A stretch of DNA of 64,000 nt, from assembly GCF_017726655.1 (NCBI RefSeq), contig NZ_CP072308.1:2802001-2866000 (forward strand), read 5' to 3'. Below, piece by piece: positions 4,000 to 51,073 of this stretch. The first letter of the stretch is position 1; the number at the start of each line of letters is the position of its first letter. The stretch comes from Agrobacterium tumefaciens (lineage in GTDB: Bacteria; Pseudomonadota; Alphaproteobacteria; Rhizobiales; Rhizobiaceae). Both the position numbers and the translations under genes were made by a program. Under the pieces are notes generated by a model. The model worked only from the letters and a program-made list of their open reading frames with translations, made no database searches and was not told where the DNA came from.

Positions 4000-4015
4000 G
4001 ACATTCCCCAATGTT

Positions 4016-46894: not shown

Positions 46895-47094
46895 TTTTTT
46901 ATCCTTCGCATTCCGGTCGCTATACTTGCAGACACAAAAAGAAACAGGTTCCGGAGAGGAACTCCGGAACCATGCCAAAATCAAATCTGAGCCGACTATA
47001 TCAGAAGACGACCGCGAAAGGCCAGCAAATTTCAGGCGTGATTATTCCATAATATTATCAATATCTTGTTCCCCAAGATTGACAATCTTCAATA

Positions 47095-47109
47095 GAACAT
47101 ATAGAGAAC
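47095..47109. promoter_or_regulatory. LexA (SOS) box
   Basis: GAACATATAGAGAAC fits the alphaproteobacterial LexA site GTTC-N7-GTTC exactly, read on the minus strand. It sits 6 bp before the ATG of the radical SAM gene, in an AT-rich promoter region, a position where bound LexA would block transcription or its early steps. Confidence 0.75.
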
Positions 47110-47115
47110 ATACCC

Positions 47116-48348
47116 ATGAAGAAGTCGATCAGGCAACGGCTGGCCATTCTCTCCGACGCGGCGAAGTACGACGCGTCCTGCGCATCGAGTGGCACGACCA
47201 AACGAAACTCTGCAGCATCAGGCGGTTTGGGTTCCACGGAAGGGTCGGGCATTTGCCATGCTTACGCTCCCGATGGACGCTGCATTTCGCTCCTGAAGAT
47301 CTTGCTCACCAATTTCTGCATTTATGATTGTGCCTATTGCATCAACCGGTCGTCCAGCAATGTGGAGCGGGCGCGCTTCACGCCGGAAGAAGTGGTCTGG
47401 CTTACGCTCGAGTTCTACCGGCGCAACTACATTGAGGGGCTTTTCCTGTCGTCGGGCATCATCCGGTCGTCAGATCATACGATGGAAGAGATGGTTCGCG
47501 TTGCTCGCGAGTTGCGCGTGACGCATGGTTTTCGCGGTTACATCCATCTGAAATCCATTCCGGAAGCATCGCCCAAACTCATCGAGGAGGCTGGGCTTTA
47601 TGCGGACCGCCTTTCGATCAATATCGAATTGCCAACCGACAGCGGTATTGGCCGGTTCGCACCGGAGAAGCAGCCGGCCAACATCCGCCGCTCGATGGCT
47701 GATATCCGGTTGAAGATAGAGGAGGCGGGGGAGCCAACTGTCAGGACGAGAAAGATCAAGCGTTTTGCCCCGGCCGGGCAGAGCACGCAGATGATCGTGG
47801 GTGCCGATGGGGCTGACGACAGCACCATTCTCTCCACTAGCGCCCGGCTCTATGGCAGCTACGGCTTGCGACGCGTCTATTATTCGGCCTTCAGCCCCAT
47901 TCCGGACTCATCGAAAAACCTGCCGCTCATCAAGCCGCCGCTGATGCGGGAGCACAGGCTTTACCAGGCCGATTGGCTTTATCGTTTTTACGGTTTCGAT
48001 ATCGGCGAAATCACGGCGATCGGCGGAGACGGCATGCTGGATCTCGATATTGATCCGAAGCTTGCCTGGGCGTTGAAACATCGTGAGCGGTTTCCCGTGG
48101 ATATCAACGTTGCAGATCGTGAAATCCTCCTGCGTGTCCCTGGTTTCGGCACGAAGACGGTCGCGTCCATCCTGTCTTCGCGGCGCTTCCGGCGGTTAAG
48201 GCTGGAGGATGTCGCCCGCTTTGGCGTTTCTCTCAAGAAGGTGAAGGCTTTTATCGTTGCGGAGGGCTGGACGCCGGGCAAGCTGACCGAGCGGCCGGAT
48301 CTGCGCGCCATGTTTGCGCCGCAGCCTGAACAATTGTCGCTTCTGTGA
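47116..48348 (+). CDS. Radical SAM protein of the putative DNA modification/repair family
   Basis: 410 residues. The iron-sulphur motif C-x3-C-x2-C is at Cys68, 72, 75 (NFCIYDCAYCINR). The radical SAM barrel spans about 45-310, and a helix-hairpin-helix DNA-binding motif lies near 330-380 (VADREILLRVPGFGTKTVASIL). This is the family annotated as putative DNA modification/repair radical SAM protein, nearly always next to a UdgX-type uracil-DNA glycosylase as here. The reaction is unknown. A LexA box precedes the ATG, linking the pair to the SOS response. Its stop overlaps the next start (TGATG). Confidence 0.9.
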   Translation: MKKSIRQRLAILSDAAKYDASCASSGTTKRNSAASGGLGSTEGSGICHAYAPDGRCISLLKILLTNFCIYDCAYCINRSSSNVERARFTPEEVVWLTLEFYRRNYIEGLFLSSGIIRSSDHTMEEMVRVARELRVTHGFRGYIHLKSIPEASPKLIEEAGLYADRLSINIELPTDSGIGRFAPEKQPANIRRSMADIRLKIEEAGEPTVRTRKIKRFAPAGQSTQMIVGADGADDSTILSTSARLYGSYGLRRVYYSAFSPIPDSSKNLPLIKPPLMREHRLYQADWLYRFYGFDIGEITAIGGDGMLDLDIDPKLAWALKHRERFPVDINVADREILLRVPGFGTKTVASILSSRRFRRLRLEDVARFGVSLKKVKAFIVAEGWTPGKLTERPDLRAMFAPQPEQLSLL

Positions 48349-49796
48349 TGTATGGGCCGATCCTTGAAGGGCGGGGCGAGTTTGGCGAGTGGCGGGACGC
48401 TGCCCGGGCGGCACTTGCCGGGGATATCCCACCCGAGCGGATCGACTGGCGGTTACGCGGGGACATGGCCGGGTTGCTGGACTTTGCCGGCGATCCTCTC
48501 CCTCCGTTCAAGCCGGGCACTGCCGAGATTTCCGTGCCGGCTTCGTTTGTTGCGCTTGCGCAGGCGGTCATCTGCCACAGCGATCCCGGGCGGTTTGCTC
48601 TGCTTTACAGGCTGTTGTGGCGGCTGAGGCAGGATCGCGCCCTGTTGCAGTTCAAGTCGGACCCAGATGTCGCCGAGGCGCGGCTACTGGAGAAATCGGT
48701 GCGCCGCGACTGTCACAAGATGACGGCTTTCGTTCGTTTCAAGGAGTTGCCTCTGCCGCAAGGGCAGGGTGGGCGGCGGCGGTTTATAGCCTGGTTTGAG
48801 CCGGACCATTTCATCGTGGAGCGGACAGCGCCGTTTTTTCAGCGCCGATTTACCGACATGGACTGGCTGATCGCCACGCCGCACGGGTCTGCGCGTTGGG
48901 ATGGGACCGCGCTTCAGACGTCGCGGCAGCCAGCCGAGAAGCCCGATCTCACCGATGAGACGGATGAACTATGGCGGACCTATTACGCCAATATATTCAA
49001 TCCGGCGCGTCTCAAAATCAAAGCCATGACGGCGGAAATGCCGAAAAAATACTGGAAGAACCTGCCCGAGGCCGATCTCATTCCCGACCTTATTCTCGGC
49101 GCGGAGGCGCGGGTGCTGGAGATGGCTGCCAAGGCGGCAAGCCAGCCACAGCCGTTTCACCATAGGCTGCAGGCGGCAGCGGCTGCGCGTGAGATGCCGC
49201 AACCGATGCCTGATGGCACGCTCACCTCGCTGGCGCGGGAGGCAAGTCATTGCACGCGCTGCCCGTTGCATTGCAATGCCACTCAGACGGTATTCGGCGC
49301 CGGTCCTGAAAACGCAAAGATCATGATCGTTGGCGAGCAACCCGGTGATCACGAGGATCTTGCAGGCAAACCCTTTGTCGGTCCCGCTGGCCAGCTTTTT
49401 GATCGCACGCTTGCCGAGGTCGGCATCGAGCGCAACAGCCTTTACGTCACCAATGCCGTCAAACACTTCAAATATGAATCCCGCGGCAAACGGCGCATTC
49501 ACCAGCGGCCGAATGCCGGTGAAGTTGAGCAGTGCCGTTGGTGGCTCAATCAGGAAATCGCGCTCGTGCGGCCGAAGCTCATCGTCGCCATGGGTGCGAC
49601 GGCGCATTACGCACTGACCGGCAGCAAGGAGAAAGTCACGGAGTTGCGCGGTCGTCCGCTGCCGATGGACGAGGGCAGGACGCTTTTTATCACCGTGCAC
49701 CCTTCCTATCTTCTTCGCATCCCCGATGCACAGCGAAAAGATATGGAAATGACGAAATTCAAGAATGATATGCGTTATGTAAGTAAATTCGAATAA
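48348..49796 (+). CDS. udgX: UdgX-type uracil-DNA glycosylase with N-terminal DUF4130 domain
   Basis: 482 residues, a fusion of two domains. Residues 1-250 are the DUF4130/TIGR03915 type (WRLRQDRALLQFKSDPDV, FVRFKE, FFQRRFTDMDW). Residues about 285-482 are the uracil-DNA glycosylase fold with FeS cysteines (HCTRCPLHC), active-site GEQPGDHEDLAGKPFVGPAG and the UdgX-specific loop KRRIHQRP. In known UdgX proteins that histidine forms a covalent bond with the sugar after uracil removal, giving a suicide complex. The ATG at 48348 overlaps the stop of the radical SAM gene. It is probably co-induced with it by DNA damage. Confidence 0.93.
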   Translation: MYGPILEGRGEFGEWRDAARAALAGDIPPERIDWRLRGDMAGLLDFAGDPLPPFKPGTAEISVPASFVALAQAVICHSDPGRFALLYRLLWRLRQDRALLQFKSDPDVAEARLLEKSVRRDCHKMTAFVRFKELPLPQGQGGRRRFIAWFEPDHFIVERTAPFFQRRFTDMDWLIATPHGSARWDGTALQTSRQPAEKPDLTDETDELWRTYYANIFNPARLKIKAMTAEMPKKYWKNLPEADLIPDLILGAEARVLEMAAKAASQPQPFHHRLQAAAAAREMPQPMPDGTLTSLAREASHCTRCPLHCNATQTVFGAGPENAKIMIVGEQPGDHEDLAGKPFVGPAGQLFDRTLAEVGIERNSLYVTNAVKHFKYESRGKRRIHQRPNAGEVEQCRWWLNQEIALVRPKLIVAMGATAHYALTGSKEKVTELRGRPLPMDEGRTLFITVHPSYLLRIPDAQRKDMEMTKFKNDMRYVSKFE

Positions 49797-49933
49797 ATTT
49801 ACGTTCTGGATTGCCTTTATTCATGACAGAACCCGCGGCGCGTGTTTTTACGTGTCGTTAAGTTTTCGTTTTAATTGAAACTTATGCGATTCATTTTATA
49901 TGTCCCGTCAAAATATTTACAGATGGACATATT

Positions 49934-51073
49934 ATGCTTGGCGAACTTGACCTTGCAACAGTCATTTTGATGCAGAAATGCTCCTATATCGTGGGCCTGT
50001 TGAGTTTCATCTATTTGATGCTGACCAACAGGGGGCTGCGTGGCCCCATTACGCTGGCGGCGGGTTTTGCGGCAATGACGGTGGGCTCCACGCTTGCCGG
50101 CTATGGCGAGTGGAAAATCGTGCCGCCCGCCGTGTGGCAGCTCGGCAGCGTCATCTTCGGCATCGCGGGTTACATGCTGATCTGGCTCGGCCTGAAGACA
50201 CTGAGCGATGGGCGAAGGGTGACGCGCAAGACCTTGATGATGACCTGTCTCGTCGCCGTGATCGGCATCATCATTGCCTTCCAGGTGGCGGAGAACAATG
50301 CGTTGCGCGCGATGCTCTTCAACGCATGCGCGGCGCTGGCCTATCTTAGTGCAGCATGGGTGCTGCTTATCGGTTGGCAGAAGGAGCCGCTGCTTTCGCG
50401 TGTTGCTCTTGGTGTCATCACCGGTCTTTCCGGGCTGATTTCGCTTTCAGTGGTCAAAGGCCTGCTTTCGCCCTCCCTCGCCTCCATCAACATCGTCAAT
50501 GCGTTTTTCCTCATCATCATGCTGAATTTTGCGATCGCTCTCTTCGTGATGATGCTGGTTGCGGAACGCTCCGAACGAAAACTCCTGGTGCTTGCCAATA
50601 CCGATCCGCTCACGGGCGTGAAGAACAGGCGCTATTTCTTCCAGACGATGCCGGCAAAGCCTGAACCGACAGACGCGGCGATGCTGCTGGATATCGATCA
50701 CTTCAAGTCCATCAACGATCGTTTCGGCCATGCGGTCGGAGATAGCGTGCTGCAGGAAGTGGCGAAGCGCATTGGCGGCAGTATCAGGGGAGGGGACGTG
50801 CTCGCCCGATATGGCGGCGAAGAGTTTATCATTTTTCTTCCCAGCGCAGGCAGCGAACGGGCCACGATGATCGGAGAGCGCATTCGCAACGCGGTCGCTT
50901 TAAACGAAGTGGATTGTGGCGGGTTGCGGATCGCCGTGACCATCAGCATCGGCGTCGCCACGGGCGGCGAGACGGATTGCGATCTCCAGGCACTGGCCGA
51001 GATGGCTGACCGCGCGCTCTATCGGGCCAAGAGCGAAGGCCGAAACTGTGTGCGCGAAGCGCTGGCCGCCTGA
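49934..51073 (+). CDS. Membrane diguanylate cyclase (GGDEF only)
   Basis: 379 residues. Residues 1-205 form about seven membrane segments (a sensor domain without a named family, rich in Leu/Ile), and residues 210-375 form the GGDEF domain with the active-site variant YGGEEF, which is fully catalytic in other proteins. The RxxD inhibitory site four residues before the GGEEF motif is not evident, so product inhibition may be absent. No EAL domain is present. The single gene has an AT-rich promoter region in front (49797-49933). Confidence 0.9.
   Translation: MLGELDLATVILMQKCSYIVGLLSFIYLMLTNRGLRGPITLAAGFAAMTVGSTLAGYGEWKIVPPAVWQLGSVIFGIAGYMLIWLGLKTLSDGRRVTRKTLMMTCLVAVIGIIIAFQVAENNALRAMLFNACAALAYLSAAWVLLIGWQKEPLLSRVALGVITGLSGLISLSVVKGLLSPSLASINIVNAFFLIIMLNFAIALFVMMLVAERSERKLLVLANTDPLTGVKNRRYFFQTMPAKPEPTDAAMLLDIDHFKSINDRFGHAVGDSVLQEVAKRIGGSIRGGDVLARYGGEEFIIFLPSAGSERATMIGERIRNAVALNEVDCGGLRIAVTISIGVATGGETDCDLQALAEMADRALYRAKSEGRNCVREALAA

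Follow-up and report, generated by a model that had tools for sequence, protein, structure and literature searches.

What would a LexA-type operator control when it stands directly before a radical SAM gene and a uracil-DNA glycosylase gene, and what might the two products do together? This question is raised by a locus in a 64,000-nucleotide stretch of the Agrobacterium tumefaciens genome (the window). The original prediction described a perfect alphaproteobacterial LexA box before a translationally coupled pair, a radical SAM/helix-hairpin-helix (HhH) protein and a UdgX fused to DUF4130, and proposed that UdgX holds a uracil-derived or crosslinked lesion for the radical SAM enzyme to act on. 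Our analysis confirmed the observation and partly supported the interpretation. With a probability of about 0.7, we read the locus as a LexA-repressed, damage-induced operon for a clamp-tethered pair that would process DNA lesions, a reading derived from sequence comparison.

The first ORF (ORF1, 47116..48348, forward strand) encodes 410 amino acids from the ATG at 47116. It scores 567.2 bits against TIGR03916 (rSAM_link_UDG, cut-off 343.5) over residues 5-398, and is also matched by PF04055. The adjacent ORF2 (48348..49796, forward strand, 482 amino acids) starts at the ATG at 48348 within TGATG, so that its start overlaps the ORF1 stop; the ORF list places this start 3 bases earlier, at GTG 48345. 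ORF2 matches TIGR03915 and DUF4130 (215.5 and 134.6 bits; TIGR03915 cut-off 112.25) at 48372..49073 (+) and TIGR03914, UdgX (348.5 bits, cut-off 190), at 49077..49781 (+). Its motifs are GEQPG, TNAV, KRRIHQRP and HPSYLLR. Based on sequence and alignment, they include the features that define UdgX, namely motif A (GEQPG), the KRRIH R-loop with its histidine, and motif B (HPS..LR), where both the defining motifs and the role of the loop histidine are taken from PMC10359453. The loop KRRIHQRP lies at 49488..49511 (+), and its His codon (49500-49502) is the counterpart of H109 of the Mycobacterium smegmatis enzyme, from which the present UdgX differs in being fused to DUF4130 and encoded beside a radical SAM gene under SOS control. 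The gene order and tight coupling match those of relatives. Thus, the profile scores, the TGATG overlap and the trapping loop bear out the gene pair as originally described.

We take COG4277 to be the radical SAM/HhH partner in operons of this kind. The predicted SOS network of Bacteroidetes includes a COG1573-COG4277 operon of two genes that encodes a uracil-DNA glycosylase (PMC8565304, 2021). The same paper cites earlier reports of SOS regulation of such a system, in Verrucomicrobia (its ref. 7) and, from the 2008 work on the Caulobacter SOS regulon (its ref. 65), in Alphaproteobacteria. DUF4130, SplB-like radical SAM proteins and uracil-DNA glycosylases were linked in 2013 (PMC3765255). The operon and its SOS control are therefore already reported, and the claim that LexA control was undescribed was wrong. 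With ORFs far above the cut-offs, the same order and close coupling, the locus shows no visible difference in gene content from the TIGR03916/TIGR03915/TIGR03914 pair (the COG4277-COG1573 operon), for which SOS control is reported or predicted in several phyla (PMC8565304).

The operator, GAACATATAGAGAAC, lies at 47095-47109 on the forward strand, 6 bp before the ATG and exactly as predicted. The pattern GAAC-N7-GAAC occurs twice in the window against 1.9 expected, and 152 times genome-wide against 109 for a reversed control pattern. Because the box itself is found at about chance frequency in the window, our argument is built on position and conservation. The narrower pattern GAACAWAWNNNGAAC has 9 matches in this genome and 0 for its reversed control, and the neighbours of these sites include ssb/uvrA and imuA (identified by inspection, ImuA additionally through a sub-cut-off profile match). 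A lexA gene is present (180 bits). The same box type precedes lexA (63 bp before its ORF), ssb/uvrA and imuA, and recA has a box with one mismatch.

A scan of homologous operons for GAAC-N7-GAAC had been suggested as a check. We scanned 105 loci: that of the window itself, 24 found among 385 genomes drawn across the class, and 80 that were chosen as closest relatives and are hence not random. Five of 110 loci (L058-L062) were excluded for want of a tblastn match at 1e-20, and L057, on a cut-off contig, was used for the box count but not for C-termini. In 101 of the 105 loci, counting the window's own, an exact forward box stands no farther than 60 bp before the start, against an expectation of 0.1 from shuffled sequence. 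When similar upstreams were removed, 84 of 87 loci kept it. Half-sites with other spacers, from 3 to 12, were absent in forward orientation from the 60-bp stretch of the 105 loci. The four exceptions are two loci whose box has one mismatch (L094, L096), one in which it is reversed (L050) and one without an exact box (L056). In a second, phylum-wide draw, all 26 fetched alphaproteobacterial loci, part of 36 such places above the cut-off and including 7 genomes counted earlier, had the box within 250 bp (20 forward, 6 reversed only).

Outside the Alphaproteobacteria, the operator changes. The beta/gamma LexA box is CTGT-N8-ACAG (PMC4151985), and with starts set from a conserved anchor it was found exactly in 12 of 17 other proteobacterial loci above the cut-off (0.04 expected). 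Allowing at most one mismatch the count is 15, leaving two loci with none, and all 17 lack GAAC-N7-GAAC near the start. This switching of the operator with the repressor of the lineage is strong evidence for LexA control. Against it, among six distant loci from annotated records, Caballeronia alone had a LexA-type pattern of those tried; Acinetobacter, Spirosoma, Phocaeicola, Gemmatirosa and a gut contig had none. A GAAC-N7-GAAC near the start that is conserved in orthologs, the mark of an alphaproteobacterial LexA-regulon member, is found at this operon, and based on these comparisons we regard it as almost certainly under LexA control.

The box also holds a -10-like TATAGA (47100-47105, +), and a candidate -35 element, TTGACA (47079..47084, +), can be picked out 15 bp before it. 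This spacing is outside the 16-18 bp required by the sigma-70 scan, which found no forward promoter in 46900-50000; the promoter reading is thus based on inspection of the sequence. A preference for T and TG recurs about 16-18 bp before the box in 84 aligned upstreams. The arrangement suggests that the operator overlaps the promoter and abuts the ATG, which would give a leaderless mRNA. Shine-Dalgarno-like 4-mers occur at 4 of 85 loci with the box at most 7 nt from the start, at 4 of 16 with the box farther away and before 12 of 99 partner ORFs, counts that lack a good ordinary-gene control and are thus only a hint of leaderless translation.

The C-terminus of the radical SAM protein offers a clue to where it may work. 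Its last five residues, QLSLL (406-410; 48331..48345, +), are a candidate beta-clamp-binding motif, based on conservation and on a match to the consensus, which is a short sequence. The sequence satisfies the clamp-client consensus Q-phi-x-[LM]-[FL] or Q-phi-x-[LM]-x-[FL] (PMC13254535), scored here with Met also accepted as phi, and both QLxLF and C-terminal placing of the motif are found in PMC4549789. Across 141 aligned homologs, a set that includes near-duplicates and some genomes twice, the motif Gln is invariant (141/141), position 2 is Leu or Met in 139, and position 4 is Leu in 135 and Phe in 6, while the surrounding tail is otherwise variable. The non-redundant sets hold 93, 45 and 20 sequences. 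In the 20 that are <70% identical, the Gln is present in all, and the median majority of the preceding tail is 0.40.

Database homologs from three queries, each represented by its best 120 of thousands, match the strict consensus in 326 of 358 cases. By query, the counts are 117 of 118 full-tail homologs for the alphaproteobacterial protein (2 of the 120 lack a full tail), 120 of 120 for Bacteroidota and 89 of 120 for the gut (Clostridia-type) protein. The 31 Clostridia-type failures, as far as listed, mostly read QLSFF, and in this group the motif mostly stands away from the very C-terminal end. By comparison, the motif was found in 32 of 1379 other ORFs (spurious frames included) and is expected in 18 of 360 shuffled tails. 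The TIGR03916 profile extends as far as the motif in two homologs; the AF2 model has low confidence for the tail. This genome encodes three IMS_C proteins, of which the DinB-like L207 has QLDLAL at its end, and L208 and ImuB have no such C-terminal motif. From these patterns, the radical SAM tail probably docks on the beta clamp. Among the papers listed in searches of the open-licence PMC literature, we found no radical SAM protein described with a clamp motif, and the presence of the motif at or near the C-terminus of this predicted clamp client is new here.

The radical SAM cluster motif, C68-x3-C72-x2-C75 (47317..47340, +), is present in all 141 aligned homologs. A second conserved set, C22/C47-H48/C56 (47179..47283, +), is present in 140 of them and is a candidate second Fe-S site. 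The first regular expression for this set matched 119 of 120 and 116 of 120 homologs in the two non-Bacteroidota query sets and missed 29 of 120 of the Bacteroidota type, with shorter spacing among those listed; a looser pattern recovered 120 of 120 (each set again the best 120 of thousands). At even odds, the set may bind a second cluster. Together, the clamp motif and this N-terminal set appear to be features of the whole family, beyond this locus alone. The Cys set is also new here, as are the overlap of operator and promoter abutting the ATG and the divergent imuA arrangement described below. Toward the C-terminus, a putative HhH segment (residues about 328-359; 48097..48192, +) is matched below threshold by PF12836 and PF14520; in a profile comparison it matches a ComEA-type chain, and PF12836 is above its cut-off in a Spirosoma homolog.

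Spore photoproduct lyase (SplB) has the cluster motif CX3CX2C. The protein encoded here is likewise a DNA-repair-linked radical SAM protein with CX3CX2C, but it is set apart from SplB by the HhH segment, the clamp motif, three additional conserved Cys and its pairing with DUF4130. In a direct reversal of the SplB kind, the radical SAM enzyme would split a pyrimidine dimer, and DUF4130 and UdgX would handle the released bases. The HhH segment and SOS control are compatible with a lesion reverser; against it, HydE and lipoyl synthase head the lists of solved folds, and the NCBIfam and Pfam listings, which extend to E 10, include no SplB profile, an absence that is weak evidence. We consider direct reversal doubtful. 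The statement in the original prediction that the radical SAM reaction was undescribed agrees with our search, as no paper giving a reaction for the TIGR03916 family was found in the open-licence PMC literature.

The neighbourhood of the operon connects it with mutasome genes in part of its range. In four of the five genomes having the gene in the draw from one family, which belongs to the same taxonomic order as this genome, the operon is divergent from imuA, and the sole exact box found within 250 bp of the operon start faces imuA. ImuA was identified by a sub-cut-off profile match, a BLAST match (6e-18) to the ImuA of this genome and its position, and imuB and dnaE2 by tblastn with the genes of this genome, dnaE2 being named by eye. 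Complete imuA-imuB-dnaE2 cassettes are found in three long regions from the genomes with this divergent arrangement (L210-L212), and the region from the fifth genome (L213) is without an imu match. Three further genomes (L046/L165, L160 and L074) have Imu genes close to the operon. The mutasome, which like the operon has a LexA-type box in this genome, is thus its direct neighbour in one alphaproteobacterial family, although ImuA-ImuB-DnaE2 is a polymerase system without radical chemistry.

It could be argued from this arrangement that the pair is a mutagenesis accessory that edits template bases for the ImuB-DnaE2 mutasome and does not repair lesions. Such a role would fit the SOS control, the clamp motif, the divergent operons of the four genomes and the description of DUF4130 as a predicted mutagenesis-related enzyme (PMC3765255). 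Against it stands the rarity of the association: a neighbouring Imu gene was found in 7 genomes, or 9 of 134 loci, whose flanks reach at most 1.5 or 5 kb, and in 3 of the 4 longer regions that were chosen by family. We hold the accessory role to be unlikely.

The partner gene distinguishes a constant domain from a variable one. Of 143 loci, some from genomes counted twice, 135 gave a tblastn match to the window's own DUF4130 domain and 108 to its UdgX domain. Among the eight that gave no DUF4130 match, L145 and L148 show only TIGR03915 by profile, L057 is on a cut contig and L186 at a contig end; none was seen in the short flanks of L170, L173 and L185, and L146 is a divergent homolog under the family cut-off whose next gene encodes a histidine kinase. 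DUF4130 is found in all 80 closest-relative loci, with UdgX also present in 67; the other 13 consist of 12 DUF4130-only ORFs and L075, cut by a contig end. TIGR03915 is likewise the only partner in Acinetobacter, Spirosoma, Phocaeicola and a gut contig. Fourteen of 105 loci retain GEQPG but lack the strict UdgX loop pattern, and in those listed the loop His is kept and the flanks differ. Matches listed from fold searches with the DUF4130-UdgX model cover mainly the UdgX part.

These distributions can be compared with the mechanism in the original prediction, in which a uracil-derived lesion is trapped by UdgX and, held or crosslinked, becomes the target of the radical SAM enzyme. UdgX does form a covalent adduct (PMC10359453), and both domains stand beside the radical SAM gene in most of the closest-relative loci. 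The M. smegmatis enzyme, however, itself excises uracil and bonds to abasic DNA (PMC10359453). Based on neighbourhood only, the radical SAM enzyme is often kept without UdgX, which argues against a UdgX-held lesion as the general mechanism; as the core of the pathway it is unsupported, and we consider it improbable. The best account, from gene content, is that the apparent core is the radical SAM protein with DUF4130 and that UdgX is a frequent added module.

The family is widespread but patchy: TIGR03916 is above its cut-off in 53 of 299 genomes of the phylum-wide draw, and the operon is found in about 25 of 385 genomes of the class-wide draw. That the pair is a phage-defence or DNA-modification system incidentally bearing a LexA box would suit the 158 plasmid records that hold a relative of the radical SAM gene, but with no match in a PADLOC defence-system search, few relatives on viral contigs (2, in a pattern-limited scan) or in a phage collection (10, 8 of them on unannotated gut contigs), and the clamp motif and lineage-matched SOS operators pointing elsewhere, a phage or defence origin is unsupported and this reading is very improbable.

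Returning to the LexA-repressed, clamp-tethered pair, we propose the following order of events. LexA bound at 47095-47109 would cover the -10 region and block transcription, as the conservation of the site suggests, and RecA-stimulated cleavage of LexA would free the operator. The transcript would probably start at or a few bases from the ATG, giving a leaderless or near-leaderless mRNA. The radical SAM protein would then dock on the beta sliding clamp through its strongly conserved QLSLL and contact DNA through the HhH segment. Together with DUF4130, its constant partner, it may subject a damaged base to a radical reaction at replication sites that are stalled or gapped, and the conserved C/CH/C set near its N-terminus may bind a second Fe-S cluster for this step. 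Where present, the optional UdgX domain would, by homology, remove uracil, remain covalently bound through the loop His and cap the abasic site. Our best guess for the substrate, held at low probability, is a pyrimidine lesion that gives rise to uracil when it is processed or deaminated.

Extended to the family, the proposal is that TIGR03916 enzymes are SOS-induced, clamp-docked and two-clustered, that with DUF4130 they apply radical chemistry to template lesions at stalled forks or gaps beside ImuB-DnaE2, and that the optional UdgX domain caps the resulting abasic sites. We place this fuller version somewhat below even odds. To our knowledge, TIGR03916 would be the first radical SAM enzyme to ride the replication sliding clamp. 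The conserved clamp motif would give the family a cellular place, the replication or repair fork, and, if the reading is true, would tie a radical SAM enzyme to the replisome. The division into a radical SAM-DUF4130 core and an optional UdgX would redirect the search for the substrate.

Further LexA-type boxes (GAAC-N7-GAAC) are present in the A. tumefaciens genome from which the window is taken, and are cited here by its sequence labels, C1 and C2, and by fetched locus (L). One, at C2:331082-331096 (L183), lies upstream of a DNA alkylation repair gene (PF08713), and another, at C2:1830870 (L184), adjoins a UvrD/Rep-like helicase ORF, recognised by eye; others are at C1:878759 (L030), C1:337851 (L006) and C1:507695 (L015). 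Within 54 bp at C1:821123-821176 (L025-L027) the motif occurs three times, with two copies overlapping. Upstream of recA, at C1:222638 (L205), we found GAACAAATAGAGTAC, which has one mismatch relative to the box. A weak second LexA-family match (C1:1662823-1663173, L032; 29.9 bits, below the cut-off) is perhaps a phage-type repressor.

On a gut contig (L148), two imperfect LexA-box copies, seen by eye upstream of position 4001, precede the radical SAM gene; we take these to be of the Gram-positive type (CGAAC-N4-GTTCG-like). The divergent TIGR03916 relative on a Gemmatirosa plasmid (L146) has no DUF4130 partner that we could see and lacks the N-terminal Cys set, and carries QLSLW close to its C-terminus.

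At two loci a hemerythrin-domain gene (PF01814) lies directly 3' of the radical SAM gene (L043, 925-1401, minus strand; L185, 6294-6779, plus strand), and in L043 it is followed by a DUF4130 ORF. The hemerythrin-domain protein might protect an oxygen-sensitive enzyme.
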